Source of the DNA: Rhizomicrobium sp.
Lineage (GTDB): Bacteria > Pseudomonadota > Alphaproteobacteria > Micropepsales > Micropepsaceae
Direction of reading: 5' to 3'
DNA: 64,000 bases
NCBI GenBank assembly: GCA_037200385.1
Contig: JBBCGL010000001.1
Coordinates: forward strand, 4,789,418-4,853,417
Part shown: positions 32,276-50,643 of the stretch, one piece after another
Position numbering within the stretch: the stretch's first letter is position 1
Layout: the number at the start of each line of letters is the position of its first letter
Translations under genes and position numbers: made by a program
Notes under the pieces: model-generated
What the model was told of the DNA's origin: nothing
The model's input: the letters and a program-made list of their open reading frames with translations, nothing else
Databases searched by the model: none

Positions 32276-32390
32276 GATCTTTTGCGTCGCCGTGTTTGCG
32301 TGCGCCTAACGCGTCAGCGTATCGTGTCAACATAGATGGCGCGAGGGGGTCGTTCTTCGTGAATCTCTCGTAAGGAACTATTTGGGGGCC

Positions 32391-36189: not shown

Positions 36190-37561
36190 ATTTCTCCATG
36201 CGCCTGTATAGCGAGGCCCGGGTCAGGCCGAGCGCCTGGGCCGCGCGGCTGACATTGCCGCCGCAGCCGGCCAGGGTCCGCGAAATCGCCGTGCGTTCCA
36301 TGGCGTCGAGGCTCAGCGGTTCGCTGCGGCGATCGTCGCCCGCGATGCGGGAATTGCCGAGCGCGAAGTCTTCGACGGCGATCTGCTCGCGGTCGCTCAG
36401 GATAACGGCACGTTCCATGGCGTGACGCAGGGCCCGCACGTTGCCGGGCCAGTCATAGCCCGTGAGCTCGTCCAGCGTCGCGGCATCGACCCGTTTGCGC
36501 GCCACATTGTACTTCGTGCAGTAGAGATCCAGGAAATGCTCCACCAGCAGGGGAATGTCTTGTCTTCGTTGGCGCAGAGGAGGGAGCTCGATCTCGACCG
36601 TATTGATCCGATAATAGAGGTCCTGCCGGAACTTGGCCTCGTCCGCCAAGAGCGCGCGCGTTTGGTTGGTGGCGAACACAAGCCTTACGTCGATGTGCTC
36701 GGCGCGTTCGCCCCCGACGGGCACGATTTCCCGGCGCTCGAGCGCCGTCAGCAGCTTGCCTTGCAAATCCAGCGGCACATTGCCGATCTCATCCAGAAAG
36801 AGCGTGCCCCCGGTCGCCGCACGGAAGCGGCCGATGCGGTCTTCCCTGGCGCCGGTGAAGGCACCGCGCCGATGACCAAAGAGTTCGGATTCGAACAGCG
36901 CTGCCGGGATTGCGCCGAGGTCGATACGCACGAACGCCTCGGCACGGCGCTTCGATCGGCGGTGGATCTCTCTCGCGACCAGCTCTTTTCCCGTGCCGTT
37001 CTCCCCCAATATCAGCACGTTGGCCTCGGACGGCGCGGCCCGCTCTATTATGTCCATGACATGGCGTATCCCGGGCGACGTACCGAGCAGTGTGCTGTCG
37101 GTGCTGAAAGCGGATATCAGTCCCTTGTGCCAGTCGCGGATTTCCGCCGCCTCGACTCTGGTGCCGTGCAGGTTTGCCGCCGCCGTCAAGGTGGCGACCA
37201 GACGGCCGTTTTCCCACGGCTTCAGTACGAAATCCGCGGCGCCGCGCTTCATGGCGCGCACCGCAAGATCGACATCCCCATGCGCGGTTATGAGTACGAC
37301 CACAGCCTGAGGATCGACGGCCAGGACTTTGGAAAGCCAATCGAGGCCTTCGGCGCCAGTATCAGCGCTGCGCGCGAAGTTCATGTCGAGCAGAAGGACG
37401 TCGAATTCGGCGCGACGGGCGGCATCGACGATTCTTGACGTGTCGCATGAGACTTCGACGGTTGCAAAGTGCCGTTTGAGCAGAAGTCGCGCGGCGACCA
37501 GCACATCCTGCTCGTCGTCGACAACCAGGATGCGCGCGGGGTTGAGGGGTGTTGGGCTCAC
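36179..37561 (-). CDS. Sigma-54-dependent response regulator (NtrC family)
   Basis: About 460 residues. Receiver domain with acidic pocket (ILVVDDEQD) and phospho-acceptor Asp in FDVLLLDMNF, near residue 58. AAA+ domain with Walker A GENGTGKE, the sigma-54 contact loop GAFTGA and Walker B GTLFLDEIG. Fis-type helix-turn-helix at the end (GNVSRAAQALGLTRASLYRRM). Start GTG 37561 (or 37564) places the receiver at the N-terminus. It reads away from the exporter operon, which has a -24/-12 promoter at 37666; autoregulation and exporter control through the shared 130-base gap are likely. Confidence 0.9.
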   Translation of the reverse strand: MSPTPLNPARILVVDDEQDVLVAARLLLKRHFATVEVSCDTSRIVDAARRAEFDVLLLDMNFARSADTGAEGLDWLSKVLAVDPQAVVVLITAHGDVDLAVRAMKRGAADFVLKPWENGRLVATLTAAANLHGTRVEAAEIRDWHKGLISAFSTDSTLLGTSPGIRHVMDIIERAAPSEANVLILGENGTGKELVAREIHRRSKRRAEAFVRIDLGAIPAALFESELFGHRRGAFTGAREDRIGRFRAATGGTLFLDEIGNVPLDLQGKLLTALERREIVPVGGERAEHIDVRLVFATNQTRALLADEAKFRQDLYYRINTVEIELPPLRQRRQDIPLLVEHFLDLYCTKYNVARKRVDAATLDELTGYDWPGNVRALRHAMERAVILSDREQIAVEDFALGNSRIAGDDRRSEPLSLDAMERTAISRTLAGCGGNVSRAAQALGLTRASLYRRMEKYGL

Positions 37562-37576
37562 CACGGCGTTCGAACC

Positions 37577-37612
37577 CGGACAGCGTTCGGACAAACTGTA
37601 CGCTGGCGGACA
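37577..37612. promoter_or_regulatory. Candidate enhancer sites for the sigma-54 activator
   Basis: Three CGGACA elements (37577-37582, 37588-37593, 37607-37612) lie 55-90 bases upstream of the -24/-12 promoter; the middle one forms an imperfect dyad ACA-AAC-TGT (37591-37599). Repeated dyads at this distance are where NtrC-type activators bind. The exact consensus of this regulator is unknown. Confidence 0.45.
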
Positions 37613-37665
37613 GTCGTGACCAAGTATATTGTCAGTATCCAGCGCGAATATTGGATATCTTATGC

Positions 37666-37680
37666 TGGCACAAGACTTGC
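37666..37680 (+). promoter_or_regulatory. Sigma-54 (-24/-12) promoter of the exporter operon
   Basis: TGGCAC-N5-TTGC with GG and GC separated by exactly 10 bases, a full match to the RpoN consensus. It reads towards the adaptor gene, with transcription expected near 37691, and next door is a GAFTGA-containing activator. Confidence 0.85.
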
Positions 37681-37803
37681 CAAACGTCCGACATGGCAAT
37701 CATAGATGAACTGAACGCGCGGGGAAAGAAACTTGCTCTCGAATGGGGCGATCGTCTTGGTCTGCGCCATGTCGAAGCCGATGCCCGACCGCCGGAATCC
37801 GGC

Positions 37804-39087
37804 ATGGACCGCCGCCTCAGCCGTCCGCCGGCCTGGCGAAAACTCATGCCGTATGCCGCCGTGCCCGCAGTGGTCGTGGGCATGGCCGCATGGCTGTTGA
37901 TGGGGGCCGGCGGCAATGTCTATCGCGTGTCGGCCGACCAGATCACCGTGGGACGCGTGACCCGGGGGCCGTTCGAGGATTTCATTGCATTGCGCGCCGT
38001 CGTCGCGCCATACGCCACGTCCTACTTGACCGCCGACCAGGGTGGCACGGTCAAAGCGGTATTGATTGAAGACGGTGCCGTCGTGAAAGCGGGCCAGCCG
38101 CTGATCGTGCTGTCCAATTCCGCGCTGGAGCAGATGGTTGCGTCGCGCGAGGCCGAAACGGCACGGCAGATCAGCGATCTGCGGAACACCGAACTGCAGC
38201 TCGAGCAGACGCGCTTCAGATACGAAGCGGACATCCTCGACATCGAGTACCAGCTCCAGACATTGAAGGGGACTCTCGCGCGCGACAGGATCCTCAACGA
38301 CGCGCATGCGATCGCGCTGGCCACCTATCTGCAGGACCAGGACAAGTATGCCTACGAGGTCAAGGTGCATGCCGCGACGACCGCCTCCCACGCCGTTCAG
38401 CAAAAGCTGCGCGAAGCGCAACGCGCTCAGCTGAAACGAACGCTGTCCGACCTCGACGCCGACATCGTCGCTTCCCGCGCGAGCCTGGCGGCGCTGACCA
38501 TCCGCGCGCCCGTAGACGGACAGTTGACCGCGCTCGACGCGCAGATCGGCCAGTCGAAGCCCCAGGGTACGGTCTTGGGCCAAGTCGACTCCCTGGCGCG
38601 CTTCAAGCTCACCGCTCAGGTGGACGAATTCTATCTGGGCCAGATCGCGCGCGGCCAGGAGGCGGTGTTCGCCGTCGACGGCCGCGACTATCGGGCGAGG
38701 GTCGACAAAATCTACCCGAAGGTCGCCAACGGCACATTCAAAGCCGACCTGCTGTTCGTCGCCGGCGCGCCGGTCGGCATCCACAATGGCCAGACCATCG
38801 ACCTCAAGCTGGAGCTCGGCGGCAAGACCGTGGCGACGATGCTGCCGAACGGCCCATTCTATCAGGACACGGGCGGTAATTGGGCTTTCGTCGTCGATCC
38901 CGACGGTGGATCGGCCGGACGGCGCAGCCTGCGGCTTGGCCGTCGAAATCTGGAAAATGTCGAGGTGCTCGACGGCTTGAAGCCGGGCGATCGCGTGATT
39001 GTTTCGAGCTATCAGGGATTTCAGACTGTAGATCGCGTCGAGCTTGCCGGAGCGCCTCGCGACGGTTCGGACCAGGAGGGGCGATGA
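37804..39087 (+). CDS. HlyD/MacA-like periplasmic adaptor of an ABC exporter
   Basis: 427 residues from ATG 37804 (MDRRLSRPPAWRK). One N-terminal membrane helix (AAVPAVVVGMAAWLLMGAG), a first biotinyl-lipoyl half (GGTVKAVLIEDGAVVKAGQPL), a long coiled-coil hairpin (about 120-230), a second half (LTIRAPVDGQLTALDAQIGQ), then a beta-barrel domain and a C-terminal GLKPGDRVIVSSY. The frame is open to ATG 37693, but transcription from the sigma-54 promoter would start about there, so the downstream start is preferred. Its stop overlaps the ATPase start (ATGA). Confidence 0.85.
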   Translation: MDRRLSRPPAWRKLMPYAAVPAVVVGMAAWLLMGAGGNVYRVSADQITVGRVTRGPFEDFIALRAVVAPYATSYLTADQGGTVKAVLIEDGAVVKAGQPLIVLSNSALEQMVASREAETARQISDLRNTELQLEQTRFRYEADILDIEYQLQTLKGTLARDRILNDAHAIALATYLQDQDKYAYEVKVHAATTASHAVQQKLREAQRAQLKRTLSDLDADIVASRASLAALTIRAPVDGQLTALDAQIGQSKPQGTVLGQVDSLARFKLTAQVDEFYLGQIARGQEAVFAVDGRDYRARVDKIYPKVANGTFKADLLFVAGAPVGIHNGQTIDLKLELGGKTVATMLPNGPFYQDTGGNWAFVVDPDGGSAGRRSLRLGRRNLENVEVLDGLKPGDRVIVSSYQGFQTVDRVELAGAPRDGSDQEGR

Positions 39088-39770
39088 TCACGCTTAGGAA
39101 CCTCAACAAGGTTTACCGCACGACTGAGGTGGAGACGACGGCTCTGCGCGATGTCGATCTGCATGTGCGGGCGCAGGAATTCCTCGCCGTCATGGGGCCG
39201 TCCGGATGCGGAAAGTCCACATTTCTGAATATCGTCGGCATGTTGGATACGCCGACGAGCGGCGAGTACGTGTTCGACGGCGAGCAGATCGCGCAGCGCA
39301 GCGAGTCGCAGCTCACCCAAATCAGGAAGACCGCGATAGGCTTCATATTCCAAAGCTTCAATCTGATCGACGAGCTGAACGTCTTCGAGAACGTGGAGCT
39401 CGCGCTGCTCTATCACCGCAACGTTTCTTCGGCGGAACGAAAAGCCCGCGTGAACGCGGCGCTGGAACGCGTGAAGATCGGCCATCGCGCGCGCCATATG
39501 CCCAAGCAGCTTTCCGGCGGCCAGCAGCAGCGCGTCGCCGTTGCGCGCGCCGTGGTCGCGCGACCGAAGCTGATTCTCGCCGACGAGCCGACCGGCAATC
39601 TCGACACCGCGAACGGCGAGGACGTGATGCAGCTCCTCGGCGAACTGAACGAGGCGGGCACGACCATCATCATGGTCACGCACTCGCATTCCCATGCCGA
39701 ATGCGCGCATCGCATCGTCGACCTGCTGGACGGTGCAATCGTGGCGGAACGAGTCATACGAGCCGCCTGA
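39084..39770 (+). CDS. ABC transporter ATP-binding protein, MacB/LolD-type
   Basis: 228 residues. Walker A GPSGCGKST, Q-loop FQSFNLI, signature LSGGQQQRVAVARA, Walker B LILADEPTGNLD and H-loop His in VTHSHSH. The 'TGNLD' form and length are typical of MacB/LolD/FtsE ATPases that power mechanotransmission rather than substrate passage through the permease. Middle gene of the adaptor-ATPase-permease operon under sigma-54 control. Confidence 0.92.
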   Translation: MITLRNLNKVYRTTEVETTALRDVDLHVRAQEFLAVMGPSGCGKSTFLNIVGMLDTPTSGEYVFDGEQIAQRSESQLTQIRKTAIGFIFQSFNLIDELNVFENVELALLYHRNVSSAERKARVNAALERVKIGHRARHMPKQLSGGQQQRVAVARAVVARPKLILADEPTGNLDTANGEDVMQLLGELNEAGTTIIMVTHSHSHAECAHRIVDLLDGAIVAERVIRAA

Positions 39771-39781
39771 AGGATCGCGCG

Positions 39782-42205
39782 ATGTATCGCAACTACCTTC
39801 TCACGACGCTTCGTCACGTACTTCGAAACAAGTATTACAGCTTCATCAATTTGGCTGGACTGACCATCGGTCTTAGCTGTGCGATTTTCATTCTCCTGTT
39901 CCTGCGCGATGAACTTTCCTACGATGCCTGGCTGCCTGGGACCGACAATCTCTACCGGGTCGAGGCGTCCTTCTACTTCCCCGGCCGAGGGCTGGAGCGG
40001 GGGGCGACCGTGCCGTTTCCGATCACGCCGGCGATGCTCGCGCATATTCCAGAAGTCAGGGCGCAAACGCATCTCATTGTCGAACGCATGACGATAAAGG
40101 TCGGCGACCGCTTGTTCGCCGAATATGTCGATGTCGTCGATCCGTCGTTCTTCGGTGTGATTCGCCTGCCGCTCATTGCCTCCGACCCGTCGACGGTGTT
40201 GGCCAGGCCGGACTCGATCGTCCTCTCGCAGGCGCTTGCCGAAAAATATTTCGGCCATTCCGACGCGATCGGAAAGACGGTCGTGCTGGACGGCGCCCAT
40301 CCCATGACCGTGACCGGCGTAATGCGGGATCTTCCGCACAACACGCAATTGGTCGCGGATGCCATCATTCCGAACAACTCCCATGCCGACAAATTGCCGC
40401 TCTCGGAGAAGGATGCGTGGCTGAACGTCGACGGCGAAGCCTTTGTCGATCTGCAGCCGCAGGCCGACCCGGCGATCGTGCTGCGGAAGCTCAAGCCGAT
40501 CCTGGATCGCAGCATCGACACCCGCAAGGAGATGAACTTGAACTTGCCGGGCAGCGAGGCGCTGCAGATACATCTCACGCGGTTCGAAGACGCGCACCTC
40601 ACCACCGACAATTACGGCGGCATGAAGGCCGCGGGAAGCTGGACGCGGATATATGGCTTTGCGACGATCGCCGCGCTGATCTTGCTGATTGCGTGCTTCA
40701 ACTTCACGAATCTCGCGACCGCGCGGGCGACGACGCGGGCGCGCGAAGTGTCGCTGCGAAAGGTATTGGGCGCGGATCGACGTCAGCTGATCGTGCAGTT
40801 CCTCGGCGAATCCGTCCTGACCGCATTTGTGGCACTTATACTGGCCTTCGTCGTCGTCGAGGTTCTCACGCCTCTCTATGACGAATTCGTCGGCTTGCCG
40901 CTGGCGCTTCACTATCTGTCGGATTGGCCGCTTACGCTGCTGATCGTTGCCGTGGCCACGGCGGCGGGGCTCTTGGGGGGCATCTATCCCGCGCTCGTGC
41001 TGTCGGCCATCCGGCCTGCGGCTTCGCTGCGGATGTCCAGCGCTCTTCAGTCGGGCACCGGTTCGCTGCGCATGACGCTCGTCATTTTCCAGTTCGCGAT
41101 CTCCATCGGGCTGGGAATCGCCGCTCTCGTCATCTTCACCCAACTTCGCTATGCGCGGCAGATCGACCTCGGCTTCGACCGCGACAATCTCGTTGTCGTG
41201 ACGGGAGCGAACAATTTGAGTCCGTCGGCGCGAGACGACTTTGCCCGCACATTGCTGCAGAATCCGGCGATACTCGGCGTGACCCAGTCCGGACCCGTGC
41301 CGTTCGAGCATGACGTGACGATCAGCAACTTCACCGTCGCCGGATCGGAACAGAATCATTTGGCGCGAACGATCGACGCCGCACCCGATTTCCCCGAGGT
41401 TTACGGCATGAAATTGCTGGCGGGCCGAACGCTGTCCCGGAAGCGCGGTCAGGACGCGAGCACCGACGAGCAGCATCTCTTCGGATCGAACGTGGTGATA
41501 ACCGCAGCCGCCGCGCGGCTCTTCGGGTTTTCTCCCCAGCAGGCGCTCGGTCGTACCATTATCCAGGACGGCGACCGCATGACGATCGTCGGCGTGTTGG
41601 ACGATCTTAAGATGGACGGCGCGCGCAGCCGTCCCGGTCCGATCGTATTTTATTTCAACCCAACTCATATCCAGGCGATGTCGGTGCGCGTCAGGGGCGG
41701 CGCGGTCCCTGCGGCTTTGGCGGCGATCGACGAGGGCTGGCGCGGATTTGCGCCCGGTACCGCCATCCGGCGCCATTTTCTCGGCAGCATGTTCGATCGC
41801 CTGTTCCAGACGGATGAAAAGGAGGGCGAGATGTTCGCGCTCTTCGTCGTTGTCGCGATATTGATAGCGTGCCTGGGGCTCCTGGGTTTGGCGGCATTCA
41901 CCGCCGAGCGCCGCACGAAGGAGATCGGCGTGCGCAAAGTGTTCGGAGCACGCACCGGCGACATCGTCTGGTTGCTGCTTTCGCAGTTCTCGATGCCCGT
42001 GCTCGCCGCCAATCTGCTCGCATGGCCGGTCGCCTGGTATTTCTTGACGGGTTGGCTCGAGAGCTTCGCCTATCGCATCGCGCTGACGCCGGCATACTTC
42101 CTGGCGTCAGGCGCCGTCGCGCTGGCGATCGCCTGGCTGACGGTCGCGGTCCAGGCGGTGCAGGTGGCTCGTGCCGACCCGATCCTGGCCTTGCGCCACG
42201 AATAG
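39782..42205 (+). CDS. FtsX/MacB-type ABC permease
   Basis: 807 residues, a tandem form with two FtsX modules: TM1 near 20-42 (INLAGLTIGLSCAIFILLF), a periplasmic MacB-PCD-like domain, three helices at 295-400, then a second TM/periplasmic/TM set with a closing FtsX domain (IACLGLLGLAAFTAERRTKEIGVRKVFGA). The size and layout match permeases that form 'ABC transporter permease, two FtsX domains' systems, often exporting peptides or lipids. Start ATG 39782, 11 bases after the ATPase. Substrate unknown; the membrane sensor kinase suggests response to envelope-active compounds. Confidence 0.88.
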   Translation: MYRNYLLTTLRHVLRNKYYSFINLAGLTIGLSCAIFILLFLRDELSYDAWLPGTDNLYRVEASFYFPGRGLERGATVPFPITPAMLAHIPEVRAQTHLIVERMTIKVGDRLFAEYVDVVDPSFFGVIRLPLIASDPSTVLARPDSIVLSQALAEKYFGHSDAIGKTVVLDGAHPMTVTGVMRDLPHNTQLVADAIIPNNSHADKLPLSEKDAWLNVDGEAFVDLQPQADPAIVLRKLKPILDRSIDTRKEMNLNLPGSEALQIHLTRFEDAHLTTDNYGGMKAAGSWTRIYGFATIAALILLIACFNFTNLATARATTRAREVSLRKVLGADRRQLIVQFLGESVLTAFVALILAFVVVEVLTPLYDEFVGLPLALHYLSDWPLTLLIVAVATAAGLLGGIYPALVLSAIRPAASLRMSSALQSGTGSLRMTLVIFQFAISIGLGIAALVIFTQLRYARQIDLGFDRDNLVVVTGANNLSPSARDDFARTLLQNPAILGVTQSGPVPFEHDVTISNFTVAGSEQNHLARTIDAAPDFPEVYGMKLLAGRTLSRKRGQDASTDEQHLFGSNVVITAAAARLFGFSPQQALGRTIIQDGDRMTIVGVLDDLKMDGARSRPGPIVFYFNPTHIQAMSVRVRGGAVPAALAAIDEGWRGFAPGTAIRRHFLGSMFDRLFQTDEKEGEMFALFVVVAILIACLGLLGLAAFTAERRTKEIGVRKVFGARTGDIVWLLLSQFSMPVLAANLLAWPVAWYFLTGWLESFAYRIALTPAYFLASGAVALAIAWLTVAVQAVQVARADPILALRHE

Positions 42206-42288: not shown

Positions 42289-43614
42289 TCAGCGAATAGA
42301 GATGCGCGCCGTATCGCCCGATACCGTCACGGTCGTTCCGAAGGGCTCCGACAGGGCCTTGAGCGATTCCAGGATTTCACGCGCGAGCGCGCCGTGCGCC
42401 AGCCGCGGCAGCCCCTTTGCCGTGGCTTGACCGTCGACGTTTAGGTCTATGGGATGAATGTCGATTTCGTCGACGCCGTCGCGTCCAAACCGGCTCAGCG
42501 CGAGAATCGATTTGTAGTCGTCCGGATTGCGGAAATAGGTCTCGTCATGCTTGCGCGATATGGCGTCGGGAGGCGTATCGAGCGGAAGACCGAAGGTCTC
42601 GTAGAGGTCGGCCGGAAATTCGCTCATCATGTGGCCTTCGAAGACGAAGTCGCCGAGCGAGTAGAATATGGGCCTGCCGCGATGGATCTCTATGGGACCG
42701 ACTTCATGCGATCCATGAACGACCACCGCATCGGCACCGGCTTCGACGGCCTGCCTTGATATATCGGTCAGGAACGCCGGCGGTTGCCGGTTGCTGAAGC
42801 CGGGCTGGTGGTTGTGAAGCGAGAACACGACGAAGTCGCTGTTCTGCCTGGCTTGGCGCAGCGCGGCAAGAATCGCCTGCTTGTCCTGTTCGTTGGTGCG
42901 GAACGTAAAGGCGACGCCGTCGCCGACCGCGTCGCTGGGCAGGTATTCGTTGCCGAGAAACGATAGTCCGTTCTCATAGTCGGCGCGGTCTTCGGGGCGC
43001 CGCTGCGAGTTCCTGATTCTCGCCAGCACCGCCAAGTTCTCGGGCGAAAGGACGACCATGCGCATCGCGCGATACGGATTGATGCCCGGCCGGCCCGGAA
43101 CGCGGCCGACCGGATCTGCTGCGCGCGCGCTGCGCGGAAAACTCGACGATGCGCAGACCAGTCCGATCCGGCCGTTCGCCGAGTCGCAATACCGTGGCTG
43201 CCGCGCCGCCGACAGCGTCTCGCCGGACCCTGCCACGGTCAGTCCGGCGCGTCTCAAATGTTCGGCGGTCGCGAGAAGCGCTTCGGCCCCCCAGTCCATG
43301 GCGTGATTGTTTGCATGGCTGAGCAGATCGAAGCCGAAATGTTTCAAATCTGCTGCGACATCGGGATCGGAGAATAACCAGGACCCGCCGGACTCTGCCT
43401 GCGGTGTGCCGACAAAACGATCTCTGTCGATGATCGTCGTCTCAAAGTTTCCAAAAGAAACATCGGCGCCGTCAACCAGTGCCATGACATCCGCAAGTTG
43501 TCGGGAGGGGTTACGGCAAATAGAGCGCGTGTATATCAGGTCTCCGACAGCAGCAAAAGACAGTATTGCCGGATCGGTGACTTCGCCCACTGCGAGACAT
43601 CTCCCAAGGTTCAC
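42289..43614 (-). CDS. CapA family metallophosphatase-like protein
   Basis: 441 residues. CapA/PgsA-like proteins carry a calcineurin-type fold and are linked to poly-gamma-glutamate capsule or to peptide processing. Visible metal-site motifs: AAVGDLIYTR, FGNFETTI, SHANNHAMDWG, FSLHNHQPGF and VVHGSHEVGP. The usual HPHV is changed to GSHEV, keeping His. Start is GTG 43614 or the GTG at 43590; there is no signal peptide, unlike many CapA proteins. It is divergent from the LuxR-type gene and lies next to the RiPP genes; no other capsule gene is present. Confidence 0.82.
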   Translation of the reverse strand: MNLGRCLAVGEVTDPAILSFAAVGDLIYTRSICRNPSRQLADVMALVDGADVSFGNFETTIIDRDRFVGTPQAESGGSWLFSDPDVAADLKHFGFDLLSHANNHAMDWGAEALLATAEHLRRAGLTVAGSGETLSAARQPRYCDSANGRIGLVCASSSFPRSARAADPVGRVPGRPGINPYRAMRMVVLSPENLAVLARIRNSQRRPEDRADYENGLSFLGNEYLPSDAVGDGVAFTFRTNEQDKQAILAALRQARQNSDFVVFSLHNHQPGFSNRQPPAFLTDISRQAVEAGADAVVVHGSHEVGPIEIHRGRPIFYSLGDFVFEGHMMSEFPADLYETFGLPLDTPPDAISRKHDETYFRNPDDYKSILALSRFGRDGVDEIDIHPIDLNVDGQATAKGLPRLAHGALAREILESLKALSEPFGTTVTVSGDTARISIR

Positions 43615-43787: not shown

Positions 43788-44423
43788 ATGGAAAATATCG
43801 TCATCTGCGATCTGGATAGTTTTTTCGTCGATGCTCTGGTCGTACTGATCCGGGGCATCCTGAACTGTCCGATTCAACCGCTGCGCCTCGTCGATCTTCG
43901 GGATTTCGATGCACAGCCGGTGTTCTCGGGCGGCTGCATCTTCTTTCTCGAAGCGTCCAACCTATCGATGCGAAGAATAAAGAAATTGCGGGACCGGCTC
44001 GGAATGCAGTCGCAGCTGATTGCGCTGGAGAATCCAGCGATCGCACTTGCGGACGATCTGAAGCCGCATTTCAGCGCACGCCTCGACAAAGTCGCATCAT
44101 TGCCGGCGCTCTATTCGATACTGCATCAGGCATTGGCGGGTTGCATCGATGAGATTCCGCAGGAGCGGCATGCGCCGGCCGCGATGCCGATGTCCCGTGG
44201 TCGTCCAAAGCGGCGCGCGGCTCTCACGTCCCGTCAGCTGCAGGTCCTTAATCTCATCGAGTCCGGAAGCACCAATGCCGAAATTGCGCACACCCTGCAC
44301 ATTTCCGCCAATACGGTTCGGCTGCATGTTTCGGCCATTCTGCGCTCGCTGAATGTCCCGAACCGGACCGCGGCCGTACATGTTCGAAACCGGATCGCTA
44401 CGGGCTCCGCCAACCTGTCATGA
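43788..44423 (+). CDS. LuxR/NarL-type regulator with degenerate receiver domain
   Basis: 211 residues from ATG 43788 (43740 and 43710 are alternatives). The N-terminal half begins MENIVICDLDSFFVDAL like a receiver domain, but at the phospho-acceptor position it has GCIFFLEASN, Glu for Asp, so it may not be phosphorylated. A basic linker (GRPKRRAA) leads to a GerE/LuxR helix-turn-helix (LTSRQLQVLNLIESG, TNAEIAHTLHISANTVRLHVSAIL). Its 3' end overlaps the C39 transporter gene by 6 bases. It is the only regulator in the RiPP locus and probably controls it. Confidence 0.82.
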   Translation: MENIVICDLDSFFVDALVVLIRGILNCPIQPLRLVDLRDFDAQPVFSGGCIFFLEASNLSMRRIKKLRDRLGMQSQLIALENPAIALADDLKPHFSARLDKVASLPALYSILHQALAGCIDEIPQERHAPAAMPMSRGRPKRRAALTSRQLQVLNLIESGSTNAEIAHTLHISANTVRLHVSAILRSLNVPNRTAAVHVRNRIATGSANLS

Positions 44424-46571
44424 GGCATCGGCAAGCTGGCCGGAGTGGCGTCCTTCGTTCGTTCCTGTCCTGGCGCCCAACCGCCGAAGCTCGCCGTCGC
44501 GCAATTCATAAACGACATGCGCGCGGCGCACGAGTTCGGGGCGGTGCGCGATGACCACGCGCGTAATGCTCAGGGACTCGATGAAGTCCGCGATCTTGGT
44601 TTCATTCTCGGAGTCCAAATTCGCCGTTCCCTCGTCCAGAACGAGCAGATCCGGGTTTCGATAGAGCGCCCGGGCGAGAAGGACTCTCTGCTTCTGGCCG
44701 ACCGACAATATGTTGCCGACGTCGCCCACGACGCTGTCGTATTTCATCGGCATTTCCACGATTTCGTCGTGAATGTTGGCGTACCGCGCGCATTGCTGCA
44801 CCCTGTCCTGGTCGGTCGTCGGATCGAAGAAGCTGATGTTCTCCGCCAGCGAGCCGGAGAACAGCTTCGCTTCCTGCGCGACGATTCCGACGCGGCTGCG
44901 ATATCTGTCGAGGCCGAACCCGAGGATCGGCTCGCCGTTGATCAACACGTCGCCGGCCTTGGGCTGGTGCAGGCCGAGGAGAACTTTGGCCAACGTGCTC
45001 TTGCCCGCTCCGGATGGCCCCACGATCGCCACGAACTCGCCCGCCGCTATCTCGAGATTGATGTTGCGCAACACGTCCTTGTCGGTATTGGAATAGGCGA
45101 ACGTCATGTCCCTGATTTCGATGGAACCGATCGGCACAGGCGCGGCACGGACCGAATGCAGCTGCTCCGGCGCCGTCAGAGCTATGTCGGCGATGCGATC
45201 GACGTGAAGCGACAGCGTTCCAAGCTGCGAAACCCGGTCGACGATCTCGAACGACCGGTCGCGGAAGTATTGGTGATAGAGCAGGAACGAGAACACCATG
45301 CCCAGCGTCATCGTCTGGTGCATGGCGGCCAGCGCGCAGAGGAAGATGATGGCGATGTTTTCGCTCGCCACGAGCGCCTTGCTCAGCGATCGGATTGCGA
45401 TTTTCGCCGACTCGAGCCGATGGGTGGCGTTCATCAGTTTCGCATTGTCGTTTTGCCAGACGGCCCTGCGCATATCCTGGGCCGAGAACAGTTTGATCGC
45501 GTCGATGTTCACGATGCTTTCCAGGAATTGCGTCGTTTCGCGCGATTCCGCGACGACCACCTCCTCGGAGAGACCTTTGAGCGTCTGGAAGCTCAGCGCC
45601 CGCACCGCGGCATAGAACGCCACGGCACCGAGTGCGATCGCCGCGAACCATATGTTGTAGGCGACCAGGACCGCGAGCGCGATGGCGATGACGAACATGT
45701 CGACTGCCGACGACATGAGATCGTCTGTCACCGTCTGGCGGATCTGAAACGTGGAACTGACGCGGGAGATGATCTGGCCCGCGTCCCGCTCGTGGAAATA
45801 CGACACCGGCAGCTTGAGCAGATGGGTGACCAGATTCAAGCCCATCTGGCTGTTGAGTCTCTGTCCCAGTTCGAGGAGGTAATGCGACCGCAGCGTTTCC
45901 ACCAGCACCGAGCCGAGGCCGATCGCCGCGAAACAACAGACCGTAAGCCAGAGCAGCGAGAAGTCGCGCCAGGGCACGATGGTGTCGACGATGATCTGCA
46001 TGATCAATGGGGTGAGGAGAAGACAGGCCTGCAGGAGGATCGACAGCGCGAGCGTGGTGGTCATGGCCGACGCCAAGCCCCGGGAACGCTGCCACATGTC
46101 GAACAAGCCGAAGCGGGCGGTCTTCTTCCTGGTGGCGAAGACGGCGGTGGGGATGAACTCGATCCCGACTCCGGTGAATTTTTCCGAGATGTCGCGCCTG
46201 GTCATCCAGCGCGCGCCGCTGGCGGGATCCAGTATATAGCCGCCCCGCCGTCCGACCCGGGAAATCACGACAAAGTGGTTCAGCTCCCAATGCAGCATGG
46301 CCGGCAGCCGCAAATGCTCCAGCGACTCGGGCTCCAGTCGGACTGCGCGGGCGCCGAAATTCAGCCGGGACGCCATGGTGATGAGTTGGCGCAGATTCAT
46401 GCCCCTTCGCGAAACCGCGAAGTCGAGACGCAGTTCATGGAGATCCACCGGCGCGCCATGATGCGCCAAGATCATGGCAAGGCAGGCAAGGCCGCACTCC
46501 GACGCCGTGCTTTGCCGTATCAAAGGCGTCCGCTTTGGGCGCCACGCGCCGATCCATTTGGCGTCAATCAT
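44418..46571 (-). CDS. Peptidase-containing ABC transporter (C39 protease, PCAT type)
   Basis: 717 residues. An N-terminal C39 protease domain has the catalytic Cys in SECGLACLAMI (Cys26), His in ELNHFVVI and Asp in ILDPASG; it cuts leader peptides after double-Gly-like sites. Then six membrane helices (about 165-440) and a nucleotide-binding domain with GPSGAGKST, LSVGQKQRV (signature G changed to V) and VLDEGTANLD. It would cleave and export the peptide made from 47286. The start at 46571 overlaps the preceding HlyD-like gene by 8 bases. Confidence 0.92.
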   Translation of the reverse strand: MIDAKWIGAWRPKRTPLIRQSTASECGLACLAMILAHHGAPVDLHELRLDFAVSRRGMNLRQLITMASRLNFGARAVRLEPESLEHLRLPAMLHWELNHFVVISRVGRRGGYILDPASGARWMTRRDISEKFTGVGIEFIPTAVFATRKKTARFGLFDMWQRSRGLASAMTTTLALSILLQACLLLTPLIMQIIVDTIVPWRDFSLLWLTVCCFAAIGLGSVLVETLRSHYLLELGQRLNSQMGLNLVTHLLKLPVSYFHERDAGQIISRVSSTFQIRQTVTDDLMSSAVDMFVIAIALAVLVAYNIWFAAIALGAVAFYAAVRALSFQTLKGLSEEVVVAESRETTQFLESIVNIDAIKLFSAQDMRRAVWQNDNAKLMNATHRLESAKIAIRSLSKALVASENIAIIFLCALAAMHQTMTLGMVFSFLLYHQYFRDRSFEIVDRVSQLGTLSLHVDRIADIALTAPEQLHSVRAAPVPIGSIEIRDMTFAYSNTDKDVLRNINLEIAAGEFVAIVGPSGAGKSTLAKVLLGLHQPKAGDVLINGEPILGFGLDRYRSRVGIVAQEAKLFSGSLAENISFFDPTTDQDRVQQCARYANIHDEIVEMPMKYDSVVGDVGNILSVGQKQRVLLARALYRNPDLLVLDEGTANLDSENETKIADFIESLSITRVVIAHRPELVRRAHVVYELRDGELRRLGARTGTNEGRHSGQLADAS

Positions 46572-47115
46572 CTGCGCGCCGCTGCAGCGAACTGACGAGC
46601 AGATGCGCGAAGGAGAGCCGTCCGATGTCGAGGGCGAAACGTTGCGGTTGACACGCCCGAATGCGCTGCACAATGGAGGGGTCGTCGGCCGCCATGTCCA
46701 GTGCGAGCGCCGTGGAGGTTTGCGGCGCCCGAGGCAGCGTACGATAGCCCACAATCGTCAGCGTGTGCGGGCCGGGACATCGTCCGCCCCAAGCTTCGAT
46801 GGCAAACCGCCGTCCCCGATCGATCTGTTGCCGCAACTTTTGCGGAGCCGCGGCGACGACGACGGTCAGAACGGCGGTTCCCGAAAGAGTCCGGATCGTC
46901 GCGGGCCCGGTGGTATGGAGCTCTATTCGCCTCTCCCAACCGACGGCCGTGGACGCCGTGATCGCGGCGACGGCCAACACAGCGACCGTCAGGAGCAAAA
47001 GTCGCTGCCATGGCGGGTGAACGATGATCACCTCGCCGGCCAGGCGCCTCTGTCGCCGCTCCACGGCCTGTTCCCGGAAAAGGCTGTAGGGTCGCTTTTG
47101 CGGAGATCCACTCAA
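46564..47115 (-). CDS. Short HlyD-like protein, partner of the C39 transporter
   Basis: 183 residues from an apparent TTG start at 47115 (no ATG in frame). The N-terminus LFREQAVERRQRRLAGEVIIV followed by one membrane helix (LLLLTVAVLAVAAITAST) is typical of HlyD-family adaptors that pair with peptidase ABC transporters. The rest is only about 120 residues, without a recognisable coiled-coil hairpin or lipoyl halves, so it is a truncated or minimal adaptor compared with the usual 380-430 residues. It may anchor or gate the exporter, or be decaying. Coupled to the transporter gene. Confidence 0.65.
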   Translation of the reverse strand: MSGSPQKRPYSLFREQAVERRQRRLAGEVIIVHPPWQRLLLLTVAVLAVAAITASTAVGWERRIELHTTGPATIRTLSGTAVLTVVVAAAPQKLRQQIDRGRRFAIEAWGGRCPGPHTLTIVGYRTLPRAPQTSTALALDMAADDPSIVQRIRACQPQRFALDIGRLSFAHLLVSSLQRRADD

Positions 47116-47285
47116 AGACAGAGGCCCTTTTCGGAGCCGTCACGAAAGACGAACTAAAATATGCAGGCAATAATGATTTAAGGCTATGATATTCGTTCTA
47201 GTATGAATGTGGCTGTATCTTGGTCGTATTGATCTGTTCCGTTCGGCGTGTCGAAATCCTGCCTCCACGAAGAAGGAAGAGTCAG
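47116..47285. promoter_or_regulatory. Divergent promoter region of the RiPP locus
   Basis: 170 AT-rich bases between the export operon and the precursor gene. A possible + strand promoter is TTTAAG (47177-47182) and TAGTAT (47199-47204) with a 16-base spacer. No LuxR-box dyad is evident. GAAGGAAGAG just before 47286 is a strong ribosome site for the precursor. Confidence 0.45.
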
Positions 47286-47423
47286 ATGACGAATATGCCA
47301 ACTCCAGAGAAAGTGGAAAAGGTCGACGAAAAGAAAGTCGACGTGATCGCGGAACTGATCGATGCCGATCTCGACGAGGTCGCTGCGGGTCATCAGTCGC
47401 ATCATCATTCGCTTCCGCAGTAG
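47286..47423 (+). CDS. RiPP precursor peptide with double-Gly-like leader and His-rich core
   Basis: 45 residues. A charged N-terminal part (EKVEKVDEKKVDV) is followed by IAELIDADLDEVAAG, which has the form of a double-glycine leader end (ELxDxxLDxVAxG) cut by C39 peptidases. Cutting after Gly35 would release HQSHHHSLPQ, ten residues with four His. The ribosome site is strong. The gene is immediately upstream of a radical SAM maturase and two predicted hydroxylases, and divergent from a C39 exporter. The exact core and modifications are inference, but the context is that of a RiPP precursor. I do not recognise the family. Confidence 0.78.
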   Translation: MTNMPTPEKVEKVDEKKVDVIAELIDADLDEVAAGHQSHHHSLPQ

Positions 47424-47435
47424 TCGGAGGTCTCC

Positions 47436-47463
47436 GGCTGACCGGCCTCACGGCCGGTCAGCC
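47436..47463 (+). terminator. Hairpin between precursor and maturase genes
   Basis: A perfect 12-base-pair stem (GGCTGACCGGCC / GGCCGGTCAGCC) with a 4-base loop TCAC. There is no T-run after it, so it is more likely a leaky terminator or an mRNA-stabilising stem that gives more precursor than enzyme message. Confidence 0.75.
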
Positions 47464-47480
47464 CTTGCGGCGAGCGCGAC

Positions 47481-48695
47481 ATGGATCAATATATCCGCGA
47501 GAACCTCGGCGTCATTCTGAAAGTCTCCGAGCGCTGCAATCTCGTCTGCGACTATTGTTATTTCTTCTTTCACGGCGACGAGACGCATCGAGATCACCCG
47601 CCGATCATACGTCCGGCGCTGGTCGACGACCTTTGCGCCTTCATCCGGTCCGCCGCAAGCGAGCATGGCGTGCGCACGGTGCGCATCGGGCTGCACGGCG
47701 GGGAGCCGTTGCTGCTCAAGAAAGCGCGCTTCCGCGAGGTGTGTTCGAAGCTGAAGGGCCTCGAAGACGAGGGGTTGCGGATCGAGCTGGTCGTGCAGAC
47801 GAATGGGACGCTCATCGACGCGGACTGGATCGATATTTTCGCGCAATTCGACATCCATCTCGGCGTCAGCTTCGATGGGCCGCAAGCCGAGAACGATCGG
47901 CATCGTTTCAAGAAAAACGGCAAGGGCTCCTACGCCGACGCGCGACGGGGCTGGGAACTGCTGCAGGCGGCGCATGCCGATCGCCGCATCGCCCTGCCGG
48001 GCCTTCTGTGCGTGATCGATCCGGAGCAGGATGGTCGCGCGGTCTATCGGCATTTTGTCGATGAGCTGAAGTCGCGCAGCATGGGATTCATATTCCCCGA
48101 CTACACCTGGGATACGGTGCCGGCCGGCAACCATGTCGAAAAGCTCGAACGCTACCTCGCTGCGGTCTTCGAGGAATGGACGCGGGACGGCGACTTCAAG
48201 ATTCGCGTCCGCCACATCCGATCCATGCTGGGTGCGCTTCTCCTCGACAGCGCCGCTTCGTTTCAGCACAGGTTCGCTGACGACGTCCGCAACTTGATCA
48301 CGGTCTCGTCCAACGGCGCCTTGGGTCCCGAAGATGTCATACGCACGATTTCGCCGCGATTCCGCGAGGCGGGATACCGGCTGCCTCAGCATTCGCTGAC
48401 GGACCTGACGTCCGGACCGATTTGGACGGAACTCGAAAAAGCGCGGACGGATCCGGCGGAGAAATGCCGCCAGTGCGAATGGTGGGGCATGTGTGGCGGC
48501 GGGCGCCCGTGGAACAGGTTCAGCGAGGCCAACGGCTTCCGCAACCCCTCCGTCTACTGTTCCGCCCTCAGGCGTCTCTATTCGGACGCCGCCGAATATC
48601 TGGTCGCGAACGGACTGCCGAGGAGCGAGATGCTCCGCAGACGCGACCAAGGCAGATTTGTCGACCAGGAAAAGACGGGAGCCGACGCATGTTGA
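47481..48695 (+). CDS. Radical SAM/SPASM peptide maturase (FxsB-like)
   Basis: 404 residues. The radical SAM cluster motif CNLVCDYCYFF gives Cys19, Cys23 and Cys26; HGGEPLLL near residue 75 is the SAM-binding GGE motif. The C-terminal SPASM region has CRQCEWWGMCGGG and a later VYCSAL cysteine for an auxiliary cluster. The overall look (ILKVSERCNLVCDYCY, LHGGEPLL) is that of cyclophane-forming FxsB/XyeB/GrrM-type maturases. The likely substrate is the His-rich peptide encoded 58 bases upstream. Its stop overlaps the HExxH gene by 7 bases. Confidence 0.88.
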   Translation: MDQYIRENLGVILKVSERCNLVCDYCYFFFHGDETHRDHPPIIRPALVDDLCAFIRSAASEHGVRTVRIGLHGGEPLLLKKARFREVCSKLKGLEDEGLRIELVVQTNGTLIDADWIDIFAQFDIHLGVSFDGPQAENDRHRFKKNGKGSYADARRGWELLQAAHADRRIALPGLLCVIDPEQDGRAVYRHFVDELKSRSMGFIFPDYTWDTVPAGNHVEKLERYLAAVFEEWTRDGDFKIRVRHIRSMLGALLLDSAASFQHRFADDVRNLITVSSNGALGPEDVIRTISPRFREAGYRLPQHSLTDLTSGPIWTELEKARTDPAEKCRQCEWWGMCGGGRPWNRFSEANGFRNPSVYCSALRRLYSDAAEYLVANGLPRSEMLRRRDQGRFVDQEKTGADAC

Positions 48696-49924
48696 ACAGG
48701 GCCGCGGGTACGGAAGAGTTCGGAATGTCGTTCTCTTGCCCCTCTCTGCTGGGAACGCAAGATTGCACCGTGATGCGCCAGGCGCTGTTGCGCACGATTT
48801 TCGGCAGGGTCCGCAAGGCGCGAAACGCGCGCTGGCCGAATCACGACGCGTTTCTTTCATCGGTGCTGGAGCCGCTGCTGGCTCGGCTTGAAGATGCCGA
48901 TGTCTGGATGCCGGAACTCGGATTTGTCCTGCATCTGCACCGCGAGGGAAAGATCGAGGCGGCGAGCGCGCAGCTTGCGCTGGCCTTGTCCGCGGCGCAG
49001 ATCGACGACGTCACATGGTCTTACGAGATCGGCGAGGATGCCGAGATGCTGTTCGGTGGGACGTTGTTCGTCGGCGGCGGTTCCATGCGCGCGCGGATTT
49101 CGCGCGACGTCGCGGAGATCGACCTGTTCGGCGGCAGCGCACCGCTCTCGCTCCGTTTCGTCAGGACGGGTGCGTTGTGGCAGCGGATGGGCACGGAGTC
49201 GCCGCGGATATGCGATCCCTATTTGCTCGCATCGGATGAGATCGGCATCTATGTGAACGGCTTCAAGACGGGCGAGGAGATGACATCGCAGGTGCCGCTG
49301 CTCAGCCACGGGCGCGCCGTGGGACCGGCCGGCATCGCGCGGCACGCCGAAATTCTCTCCAGCGCCCTGGCGACGATCGAACAGATGGGTCCGGACTATG
49401 TTCGCTGGGTCGGCCACGCCATAAAGATGGTGCAAATGCTCGATTGCTGGCGCGAAGAAGGCGACCCGGTCTATACGTCGAGCAGCTGGCCCAGCCGCCC
49501 CGGCATGGTTTCAATGGGGTTTTCGGTGGCGCCAACGCTCTTTGAGCACAAATTCCGCGTCGCCGATTCGTTCATCCACGAGGCGTCCCACCAGTATCTG
49601 AACCTGCTGAGCTTGGCGTTCCCGTTGGCCAACGGCAACGACAGTTCACTCTACTATTCGGTTCTCGCGCGAAGAGAGCGGCCGATCGATCGCGTTCTTC
49701 TGGCGTTCCACGCGGCGGCAAACATGGCGTTGTTCTATGCCGAAGCGTTCCGGCGGGGCCGCTACGAGTGCAGGCACAACTTCAAATGGGCGATGGACTG
49801 TTCGAAGTCCCTTCGCGAGCCGCTCGACCATACCACGGGGCTGACCGACGTGGGCTTGGGCATTTTCAGGCCCCTGGCGAGCGCTCTGGACGAGATCGAC
49901 ACAAGCATGCTCGCGCATGCCTAG
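48689..49924 (+). CDS. HExxH-motif protein, putative 2OG-dependent peptide beta-hydroxylase
   Basis: 411 residues. The motif HEASH (about 295-299, in DSFIHEASHQYLNLL) is the metal-binding HExxH found in a RiPP-associated family described as alpha-ketoglutarate HExxH-type peptide beta-hydroxylases. Around it are the family-typical upstream stretch YTSSSWPSRPGMVSMGF, a later SVLARRERPIDRVLLAFHAA and the C-terminal AFRRGRYECRHN region. It would add a hydroxyl group to a side-chain beta carbon in the core peptide, with His or Ser the obvious candidates here; this is inference. ATG 48689 is coupled to the radical SAM gene; ATG 48725 is possible. Confidence 0.78.
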   Translation: MLNRAAGTEEFGMSFSCPSLLGTQDCTVMRQALLRTIFGRVRKARNARWPNHDAFLSSVLEPLLARLEDADVWMPELGFVLHLHREGKIEAASAQLALALSAAQIDDVTWSYEIGEDAEMLFGGTLFVGGGSMRARISRDVAEIDLFGGSAPLSLRFVRTGALWQRMGTESPRICDPYLLASDEIGIYVNGFKTGEEMTSQVPLLSHGRAVGPAGIARHAEILSSALATIEQMGPDYVRWVGHAIKMVQMLDCWREEGDPVYTSSSWPSRPGMVSMGFSVAPTLFEHKFRVADSFIHEASHQYLNLLSLAFPLANGNDSSLYYSVLARRERPIDRVLLAFHAAANMALFYAEAFRRGRYECRHNFKWAMDCSKSLREPLDHTTGLTDVGLGIFRPLASALDEIDTSMLAHA

Positions 49925-49971
49925 CGGACGCTGCTCGAGCATTGCCGCGAAGCCGTCGCCGGCGTGTGCGA

Positions 49972-50643
49972 ATGCTTGATCTGGCGGCTCGTACCGAAGC
50001 CGAGCTGAACCTGCTCTGCGATGCGTTTCGCCGGCGGGGCCGGGTCATCATTCGCGATTTTCTGGAACCTGCGGCCGCCGAATTGCTGGTCGGCTGGCTT
50101 GTGCGCCAGCCGCGCTGGACGACCGTCGGATGCCCGGCGGCCTTGGTGCCGCCGGAGGGCGTTGATCGCCAATGTCAGGCGCCGCCCCGACTGAGCTTCC
50201 ATTATGATAGTATATTGCTGTTCGACGAAGGCCCGTCCCGCCGCGACGATTGCGGCCTTGTGGATTTCCTGACCTCCGGCGAGTTCGTCGACCTCATTTC
50301 GCGCGTGACCGGGCGCACCGATCTCTCCGGTGCCGACGGCCACGCGACGCGATTTGGCGCGGGACACCACCTCAATCTGCATATGGATGGAACGAAGCCG
50401 GGGGAGCCGCGCGGTGTTCGCAGGGTTGCGTTCGTGCTGGGAATGACGCGGGCCTGGAATCCGGACTGGGGCGGCTTCACGCTCTTTCCGCAGTCCGATG
50501 AGCCGTTCGCTGCCGGCGCATTTCCAAGCTACAACCAGCTGCTTCTGTTCGCAGTGCCCACGCCGCACCTGGTCACGCGAATTGCTCCCGATTGTCCCCG
50601 CTACCGCTACGCGATTTCGGGCTGGGCGCGAAGCAGCGCCTGA
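49972..50643 (+). CDS. 2OG-Fe(II) oxygenase, prolyl-hydroxylase-like
   Basis: 223 residues, a jelly-roll dioxygenase. The Fe-binding H-x-D is HMD in HHLNLHMDGTK (about residue 137), the distal His in PTPHLVTRI and the 2-oxoglutarate Arg in RYRYAISGW. DWGGFTLFP between them is characteristic of the prolyl-4-hydroxylase-like group that also includes RiPP hydroxylases. It ends the + strand run precursor, rSAM, HExxH, 2OG oxygenase. The core contains one Pro (LPQ) and could be its target; His or Leu hydroxylation is equally possible. The start follows the HExxH stop by 47 bases and has no clear ribosome site. Confidence 0.8.
   Translation: MLDLAARTEAELNLLCDAFRRRGRVIIRDFLEPAAAELLVGWLVRQPRWTTVGCPAALVPPEGVDRQCQAPPRLSFHYDSILLFDEGPSRRDDCGLVDFLTSGEFVDLISRVTGRTDLSGADGHATRFGAGHHLNLHMDGTKPGEPRGVRRVAFVLGMTRAWNPDWGGFTLFPQSDEPFAAGAFPSYNQLLLFAVPTPHLVTRIAPDCPRYRYAISGWARSSA

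Follow-up and report, generated by a model that had tools for sequence, protein, structure and literature searches.

RESULTS

Organization of the locus

The window analyzed here is the whole 64,000-nt stretch of the Rhizomicrobium sp. genome (GenBank GCA_037200385.1, contig JBBCGL010000001.1, forward-strand positions 4,789,418 to 4,853,417), in which positions 43788-50643 encode a putative ribosomally synthesized and post-translationally modified peptide (RiPP) together with its tailoring enzymes and exporter. The cluster comprises a peptide gene, three enzyme genes, two transport genes, a regulator gene, and an intergenic hairpin (aa, amino acids; HTH, helix-turn-helix; ABC, ATP-binding cassette; HMM, hidden Markov model; rSAM, radical S-adenosylmethionine enzyme; aKG, alpha-ketoglutarate; 2OG, 2-oxoglutarate):

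43788-44423, + strand: LuxR-type HTH regulator (PF00196, 61.9 bits)
44418-46571, - strand: C39-peptidase ABC exporter (PF03412, PF00664, PF00005)
46564-47115, - strand: short HlyD-like membrane protein of 183 aa, residues 11-64 resembling HlyD adaptors, no Pfam match
47286-47423, + strand: very probable precursor peptide of 45 aa, recognized by its sequence, an HMM of relatives' precursors, and leader alignment
47436..47463, + strand: perfect 12-bp hairpin with a 4-nt loop, between the precursor and rSAM genes
47481-48695, + strand: radical SAM/SPASM peptide maturase (rSAM; PF04055; best NCBIfam model TIGR04496 XyeB, 285 bits, cut-off 450)
48689-49924, + strand: aKG-HExxH-type peptide beta-hydroxylase (TIGR04267, 63.3 bits, cut-off 40; no Pfam match)
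49972-50643, + strand: 2OG-Fe(II) oxygenase (PF13661/PF13640; PF13661 49.2 bits, cut-off 27)

The precursor, rSAM, HExxH, and 2OG-Fe(II) oxygenase genes follow one another, all on the + strand (47286-50643). The HExxH and rSAM genes are separate open reading frames (ORFs) that overlap by 7 bp. The exporter and HlyD-like genes diverge from the precursor gene on the - strand, and the regulator gene converges on the exporter gene. The reading frames of the cluster genes are intact, and the catalytic motifs of the rSAM and HExxH enzymes are retained. All genes named in the initial annotation are present, and their families match, except for the HlyD-like protein, which matches no family. Its broader proposal of a RiPP locus with a His-rich core, a cross-linking rSAM enzyme, and two predicted hydroxylases is supported by the families, the relatives, and the architecture.

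The precursor peptide

The 45-aa peptide consists of a leader of residues 1-35, ending in LIDADLDEVAAG, and a predicted core of residues 36-45, HQSHHHSLPQ, with four His in ten residues. Cys, Trp, Tyr, and Phe are absent from the entire peptide, leaving His as its sole aromatic residue; if cyclophane chemistry applies, His must therefore be the aromatic partner. A sactipeptide or thioether product is rejected by the absence of Cys, and cyclophanes on Trp, Tyr, or Phe by the absence of these residues.

Scoring with an HMM of relatives' precursors places the precursor ORF (longest form 47220-47423) first among the 593 window ORFs of 20-130 aa, at an E value of 0.054 with 15 relatives in the model (runner-up 1.4) and 0.034 with only the leaders of L001-L006, the six loci found by the species scan described below (runner-up 1.6). 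The end of the leader resembles LIDAHIDEVTGG of acidobacterial and Polyangium precursors, with ELIDADLDEVAAG aligning to DLIDAHIDEVTGG from an acidobacterial precursor and the precursors related to it, and the L001-L006 precursors share the leader-end pattern [LV][IV][DE]AHID.V[TS]GG.

The 57-nt gap between the precursor and rSAM genes folds at -35.4 kcal/mol (z -3.8), and none of 200 shuffles is equally stable. Folding of ten relatives' gaps without a shuffle control (L001, L002, L003, L004, L006, L030, L031, L032, L035, and L044) gives a long stem in all but L002, with differing stem sequences; the comparison left out L014, L033, and L036, and in L005 the precursor lies behind the rSAM gene. 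Judging from the architecture, the hairpin is a probable transcript attenuator or stabilizer favoring the precursor over the enzyme transcript. On the basis of the HMM rank, the leader-end alignment, and this intergenic hairpin, we take the 45-aa ORF to be, very probably, the genuine precursor and substrate.

The radical SAM enzyme

The top NCBIfam models for the rSAM enzyme are XyeB (285 bits), YhhB (247 bits), and FxsB (245 bits), all three cyclophane formers, followed by a sulfatase maturase model at 145 bits. Among solved structures, the ChlB radical SAM domain comes nearest (E 2e-37), followed by an anaerobic sulfatase-maturating enzyme (1e-18). As in triceptide loci, the precursor adjoins a SPASM enzyme close to the three-residue cyclophane-forming enzymes (3-CyFEs). 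In the tree, computed without L006, the enzyme stands apart from the Xye clade (L014, L030, L033, and L035) and falls into an 11-row group (support 83/85) that includes all HExxH partners in the tree but L043 (six of seven). Based on these sequence comparisons, the enzyme would work like a triceptide-type cyclophane synthase outside the curated families.

Assignment to named families was rejected on the curated cut-offs: XyeB (TIGR04496) at 285 of 450 bits, with no XyeA match for the precursor (TIGR04495, cut-off 33); YhhB (NF041707) at 247 of 445; FxsB (TIGR04269) at 245 of 370; and HxsB at 46 of 370. The Xenorhabdus locus L035, used as a positive control, passes both XyeB (559 bits) and XyeA (69 bits).

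Core motifs and the HExxH gene

All 16 tabulated peptides were verified in frame with a stop codon. Every core of L001-L006 holds an aromatic-x-polar motif, and at least two such motifs, leader included, occur in 14 of 15 relatives' precursors, L014 having one. The same method recovers the known XyeA motifs (WVN, FAR, WDK) in Xenorhabdus L035.

Where a HExxH gene adjoins, the cores contain HQS and HHS in the window, HVQ in L001, HIQ in L004 and L006, HSS in L031, and four H-x-S motifs each in L032 and L044, which have the sequence HGSAHGSGHASGHLS in common. Among cores without HExxH, L002 has HVN, L003 HFN, and L034 HSK, and no core H-x-polar motif occurs in L005, L014, L015 (FVS repeats), L030, L033, L035 (WVN, FAR, WDK), or L036 (Y-x-Q). 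A core His-x-[Ser/Gln] is found in all seven loci with HExxH (the window, L001, L004, L006, L031, L032, and L044) and in 0 of the 10 without (Fisher 5e-5), a motif that was defined after seeing the data. Merging L004 with L006 and L032 with L044 gives 5/5 versus 0/10 (Fisher 3e-4). L044 was found through a HExxH profile search, and the closely related L001-L006 contribute to both sides of the contrast. The counts leave out L016 (no precursor candidate found), L043 (no double-Gly site), and L008 and L009 (precursors not looked for), and L015 is counted from a His-less peptide that is uncertain because its ORF overlaps a longer one.

The initial annotation had made conservation of the C terminus a test of its proposal, and the outcome goes half against it. 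In the nearest rSAM relatives the C terminus is not conserved (LHVQF, LHIQY, and similar in L001-L006); what the loci have in common is the end of the leader, joined in those with HExxH by a core His-x-Ser/Gln.

The ORF in L015 (10176-10484, - strand) carries three GGNFVSAPAMSG repeats (F-V-S) upstream of a YhhB/XyeB-like rSAM gene. The repeats recall the Phe-Ser rings of the MscB type; the longer overlapping ORF is in another frame.

Two predicted hydroxylases

The HExxH protein carries a HEASH motif, and H297, E298, H301, and H341 are invariant in the alignment. Together with the motif, its TIGR04267 score places it in this family, and aKG-dependent hydroxylation of the core is predicted. 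Against the PDB, its profile matches 22nu best (E 5e-15), an entry titled radical SAM core domain-containing protein, with ChlH (8s5f) second (2.8e-6).

The 2OG-Fe(II) oxygenase belongs to PF13661 by score and by its HxD...H ligands; the HxD...H...R residues were read by eye, and a weak match links it to the OGFOD1 structure 4nhx (E 0.0016). The sole tblastn trace of this enzyme at other rSAM loci is a 34-aa stretch in L015 (E 0.059). On a plasmid of Blastomonas sp. RAC04 (L040), a relative with 31% identity is encoded next to a C39 exporter, HlyD, and two peptides of 60 aa, showing that peptide clusters can include this family; no exporter is annotated beside two further relatives examined, in Pandoraea and Sphingomonas. 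A triceptide survey by Sugiyama et al. (JACS 2022) reportedly describes an Fe/2OG hydroxylase acting inside cyclophane rings.

Exporter and HlyD-like protein

Of the 18 other loci, 13 have a C39 exporter homologue close to the rSAM gene (L001-L006, L014, L031-L035, and L044); none was found in L015, L016, L030, or L036, and none is annotated in L043. The exporter is expected to cut after DEVAAG and to export the product. The proposed HlyD-like partner resembles HlyD in its N-terminal part but not in the remainder: a model of four full-length adaptors aligns with residues 11-64 only, and a full HlyD adaptor is rejected in favor of a truncated, adaptor-like protein. Tested with five short proteins from other loci (n = 6), the window protein scores E 4e-4 and the L032 protein 2e-4, and those of L005, L044, L002, and L003 give no match (0.06 to 0.5).

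Small membrane proteins of 72-138 aa are encoded directly before the C39 exporter gene in five relatives (L032:8515-8922, L044:5273-5689, L002:9168-9386, L003:9142-9360, and L005:3120-3362). The L032 protein is a 135-aa counterpart of the window protein; the likeness of the other four was judged by eye only, from a FRPEA-like start or from position.

Distribution of the enzyme set

A scan of one genome per species across 84,980 species with short exact peptide patterns returned six rSAM loci (L001-L006), with 42-46% rSAM identity, in Polyangium fumosum (L001) and acidobacterial metagenome-assembled genomes (MAGs). Within the class, profile searches at 1e-70 found the rSAM enzyme in 4 of 385 genomes, and within the phylum, at 1e-90, in 5 of 398, the host's own genome included in both; around L002 (347 genomes) and L001 (188 genomes), the seed genome was the only match. 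At 1e-20, 3 of 100 relatives have an rSAM match, the two besides the host (L008 and L009) being 28-30% identical, and the host alone has this rSAM among 60 same-genus genomes. An rSAM match occurs in 22 plasmid records, of which four were examined. The rare and patchy occurrence of the family suggests that the host gained it horizontally. By its 16S rRNA the host is alphaproteobacterial, its best full-length matches on plasmids standing at 88% (Methylosinus and Ensifer).

The initial annotation knew of no described RiPP with this exact enzyme set and core. The trio of rSAM, aKG-HExxH, and C39 exporter does occur elsewhere, in Polyangium, acidobacterial MAGs, and other proteobacteria; the set that includes the 2OG-Fe(II) oxygenase recurs in 0 of the 18 other loci. 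The combination of this core sequence with three tailoring enzymes is absent from all relatives examined, and neither the enzyme set nor the core is described in the open-licence papers listed, covered mostly as titles and abstract beginnings and without the subscription triceptide papers.

Two of the relatives differ in gene structure or setting. In L006 (968-1967), located on a 4.2-kb contig, the acidobacterial rSAM gene occupies two separate frames, which may reflect sequencing error or decay. On the Rhodococcus sp. DMU1 plasmid L043 (2853-5564), an rSAM and HExxH pair adjoins a caspase-family gene, and a 65-aa ORF there contains HTS.

Regulator and neighboring genes

The LuxR-type regulator probably controls this cluster, judging from its position. 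Its Pfam matches include no receiver domain, and LuxR-type HTH genes also lie near the rSAM gene in L034 and L036. A promoter scan gave one promoter-like site (0.4 expected) and one terminator-like site (1.4 expected), an uninformative result. To the right of the cluster lie a TetR regulator and a desaturase-like gene, and nothing suggests a link between them and the pathway. To the left lie further genes:

34846-42205: five-gene module of a histidine kinase (HK), a sigma-54 regulator, HlyD, an ABC ATPase, and a MacB-FtsX permease
42289-43614, - strand: CapA/PGA_cap MslH-like protein, similar to the lasso-peptide epimerase MslH along nearly its whole length (4e-52)

DISCUSSION

Proposed product and maturation

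We consider it probable that the locus makes a triceptide-like RiPP with a His-only core, bearing His-Ser cyclophanes, a beta-hydroxylation, and a 2OG-dependent hydroxylation, and exported by the C39 transporter. From the genes, their family membership, the leader similarity, the hairpin, and the co-occurrence pattern, we infer the chemistry, cleavage site, regulation, function, and bioactivity, for which we propose the following scheme. The 45-aa precursor would be made in excess over the enzymes, aided by the hairpin 3' of its gene, as the architecture implies. 3-CyFE-type SPASM enzymes link the C-beta of residue i+2 to a ring carbon of an aromatic residue i. The window enzyme would likewise abstract a hydrogen from the C-beta of residue i+2 and bond this carbon to the imidazole of His i. 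Ser38 and Ser42 would be the natural ring acceptors, and the likeliest rings in ..G|HQSHHHSLPQ would be His36-Ser38 and His40-Ser42. This placement is based on the H-x-S and H-x-Q cores of the relatives and on published His- and Ser-type rings of sister enzymes, of which the consulted sections of PMC11002830 give His-Ala (HaaB, ScaB), His-Arg (YhhB), and Phe-Ser (MscB).

The aKG-HExxH enzyme would next beta-hydroxylate a cyclophane residue, probably His. A fused rSAM-aKG-HExxH enzyme beta-hydroxylates Asp and His and requires a preinstalled cyclophane, as described in part of PMC12636437. The 2OG-Fe(II) oxygenase would add a further hydroxyl, with Pro44 as the orthodox guess, and the C39 ABC transporter would cleave after AAG and export the decapeptide with its minimal HlyD-like partner. 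The calculated [M+H]+ is 1207.57 for the unmodified decapeptide and 1235.53 with two cross-links and two hydroxyls. More tentatively, and with rather more doubt than confidence, the locus may represent a new triceptide-like subclass in which every ring is His-Ser and the ring residues are oxidized by two unrelated iron/2-oxoglutarate enzymes, giving a doubly hydroxylated decapeptide served by a minimal HlyD-like adaptor, with tandem His-Ser cyclophanes in L032 and L044.

Relation to known systems

The cluster resembles the triceptide systems (XncB/XyeB, YhhB, HaaB, and MscB) in its SPASM rSAM enzyme, short leader, and putative aromatic-x-X3 core, as well as in its C39 exporter, which also occurs in Xenorhabdus L035; rings on His and Ser at X3 are each known from the consulted sections of PMC11002830. 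It differs from them in its His-only aromatic core, its two hydroxylase genes, its scores below every curated cut-off, and the His-x-Ser pairing, which is not among the cross-links in the consulted sections of PMC11002830. With the ChlB/ChlH systems it shares the combination of rSAM enzyme and aKG-HExxH hydroxylase, ChlB being the closest solved rSAM structure. The fused protein of the ChlB type, as described in part of PMC12636437, contrasts with the separate, overlapping genes here; a fused rSAM-HExxH assignment is rejected on these two ORFs. The cluster further differs in its own precursor and its additional 2OG-Fe(II) oxygenase.

Closest in composition are L031, L032, L044, L001, and L004/L006, which share the rSAM, HExxH, and C39 exporter genes and a core H-x-[S/Q], with a small HlyD-like protein also in L032 and, by position, in L044; no 2OG oxygenase was found in these loci, and their core sequences differ. 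The His-Xaa-Ser (HxsABCD) system likewise has His-x-Ser motifs in its peptide, but the window enzyme fails the HxsB cut-off, and no second rSAM gene occurs among ten neighbors scanned. Blastomonas L040 (1334-3698) has a related 2OG-Fe(II) oxygenase beside its C39 exporter, HlyD, and small peptides, whereas no rSAM or HExxH gene is annotated in the 7.3 kb examined there and one peptide is Lys/Ser-rich, with G-S-K-S-K repeats. A 324-aa protein there has no Pfam or NCBIfam match, and L040 is a candidate for an unrelated RiPP locus.

Alternative interpretations

Several results weigh against a His-Ser cyclophane product. The leader similarity is modest (E 0.03-0.05), the predicted cleavage site AAG differs from the usual GG, and two of seven gaps scanned (L002 and L034) show no inverted repeat. 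None of the 18 other rSAM loci, 17 searched by tblastn and L043 by annotation, yielded the 2OG oxygenase. Since the rSAM enzyme scores below all curated cut-offs and its place within the 11-row group does not resolve, regiochemistry is not transferable from the sister families. The broader His-x-polar motif separates the loci less sharply (7/7 versus 3/10, p 0.006; 0.019 after merging), L002, L003, and L034 carrying it without HExxH. Two H-x-S motifs arise in 10.6% of same-letter shuffles of the window 10-mer and the single H-x-S of L031 in 15%, neither significant alone; because of the former figure, the weight rests on the relatives, above all L032 and L044.

An unlikely alternative product is a His-rich, metallophore-like peptide devoted to metal handling rather than growth inhibition, in which the rSAM enzyme makes one cross-link or, for example, a His-His bond. 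Four His in ten residues would fit such a peptide, and on general grounds metal binding would be well served by hydroxylated His or Ser; yet Pfam scanning of 20 window proteins revealed no recognizable metal importer, their only TonB receptor (32382-34445) is encoded on the far side of the regulator/efflux module, and most of the relatives' cores are not rich in His (HVQ, HIQ, WVN). We assign a low probability, too, to an rSAM enzyme that makes no His cyclophane and epimerizes, dehydrogenates, or cross-links elsewhere, leaving the hydroxylases to act on a linear peptide. SPASM chemistry is diverse as a matter of general knowledge, and no curated cyclophane-family cut-off is passed. In the consulted sections of PMC12636437, the HExxH enzymes PflC/PosC act as hydroxylases on consecutive Gln residues, and no rSAM gene is listed for the pfl cluster. 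Set against this, cyclophane enzymes make up the top three family models as well as the leading PDB match, and nearly all relatives' precursors repeat the aromatic-x-polar motif. A substrate other than the small ORF, or a decayed or non-functional cluster, appears very improbable: taken alone, the leader match is weak, and the host is the only one of 60 same-genus genomes with this rSAM, but the frames are intact, the catalytic motifs kept, and the intergenic hairpin present.

It is also decidedly unlikely that the cluster is larger, with the 34846-42205 module and the MslH-like gene contributing immunity efflux and an epimerized residue. An efflux or immunity role is kept as a rival because MacB-type permeases or HlyD and ABC genes lie near the C39 or rSAM genes of relatives: MacB-type permeases immediately adjoining the C39 exporter in L002 and L031, HlyD and ABC ATPase genes beside it in L045 (same genome as L031) and in L044 (where a permease was read by eye only), an ABC ATPase with a MacB-type permease upstream of the rSAM gene in L001, and a MacB-type permease upstream in L003. 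The MslH-like protein, for its part, matches MslH over almost its full length. Against an immunity role for this HK/response regulator/MacAB-like module, it occurs without rSAM or C39 exporter genes in genus stretches L060, L062, L063, and L064, and 16 of 60 genus genomes encode its FtsX, some with copies in tandem, which weakens the assignment. An epimerase role is weakened by a score of 227 of 700 bits, below the NF038314 cut-off, and by the MslH-like homologue neighborhoods, none of which holds homologues of the window rSAM, HExxH, 2OG, or full C39 exporter (0/6; one further match, G236, was left out). The gene itself appears at 1e-25 in 2 of 60 genus genomes, the host included. Both the MslH-like gene and the module are probably outside the pathway.

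Implications

If the triceptide-like reading with His-Ser rings is true, it would carry the radical SAM cyclophane principle over to cores with His as the sole aromatic residue, and would pair such His-only cyclophane cores with two different iron/2-oxoglutarate hydroxylases. It would also link peptides with His-x-Ser motifs to a system with a single rSAM enzyme. Xenorceptides are the products of Xye-type triceptide clusters. They are described as BamA-targeting antibacterials in the consulted sections of PMC12971899, and a product from a xenorceptide-related neighborhood would be worth isolating.

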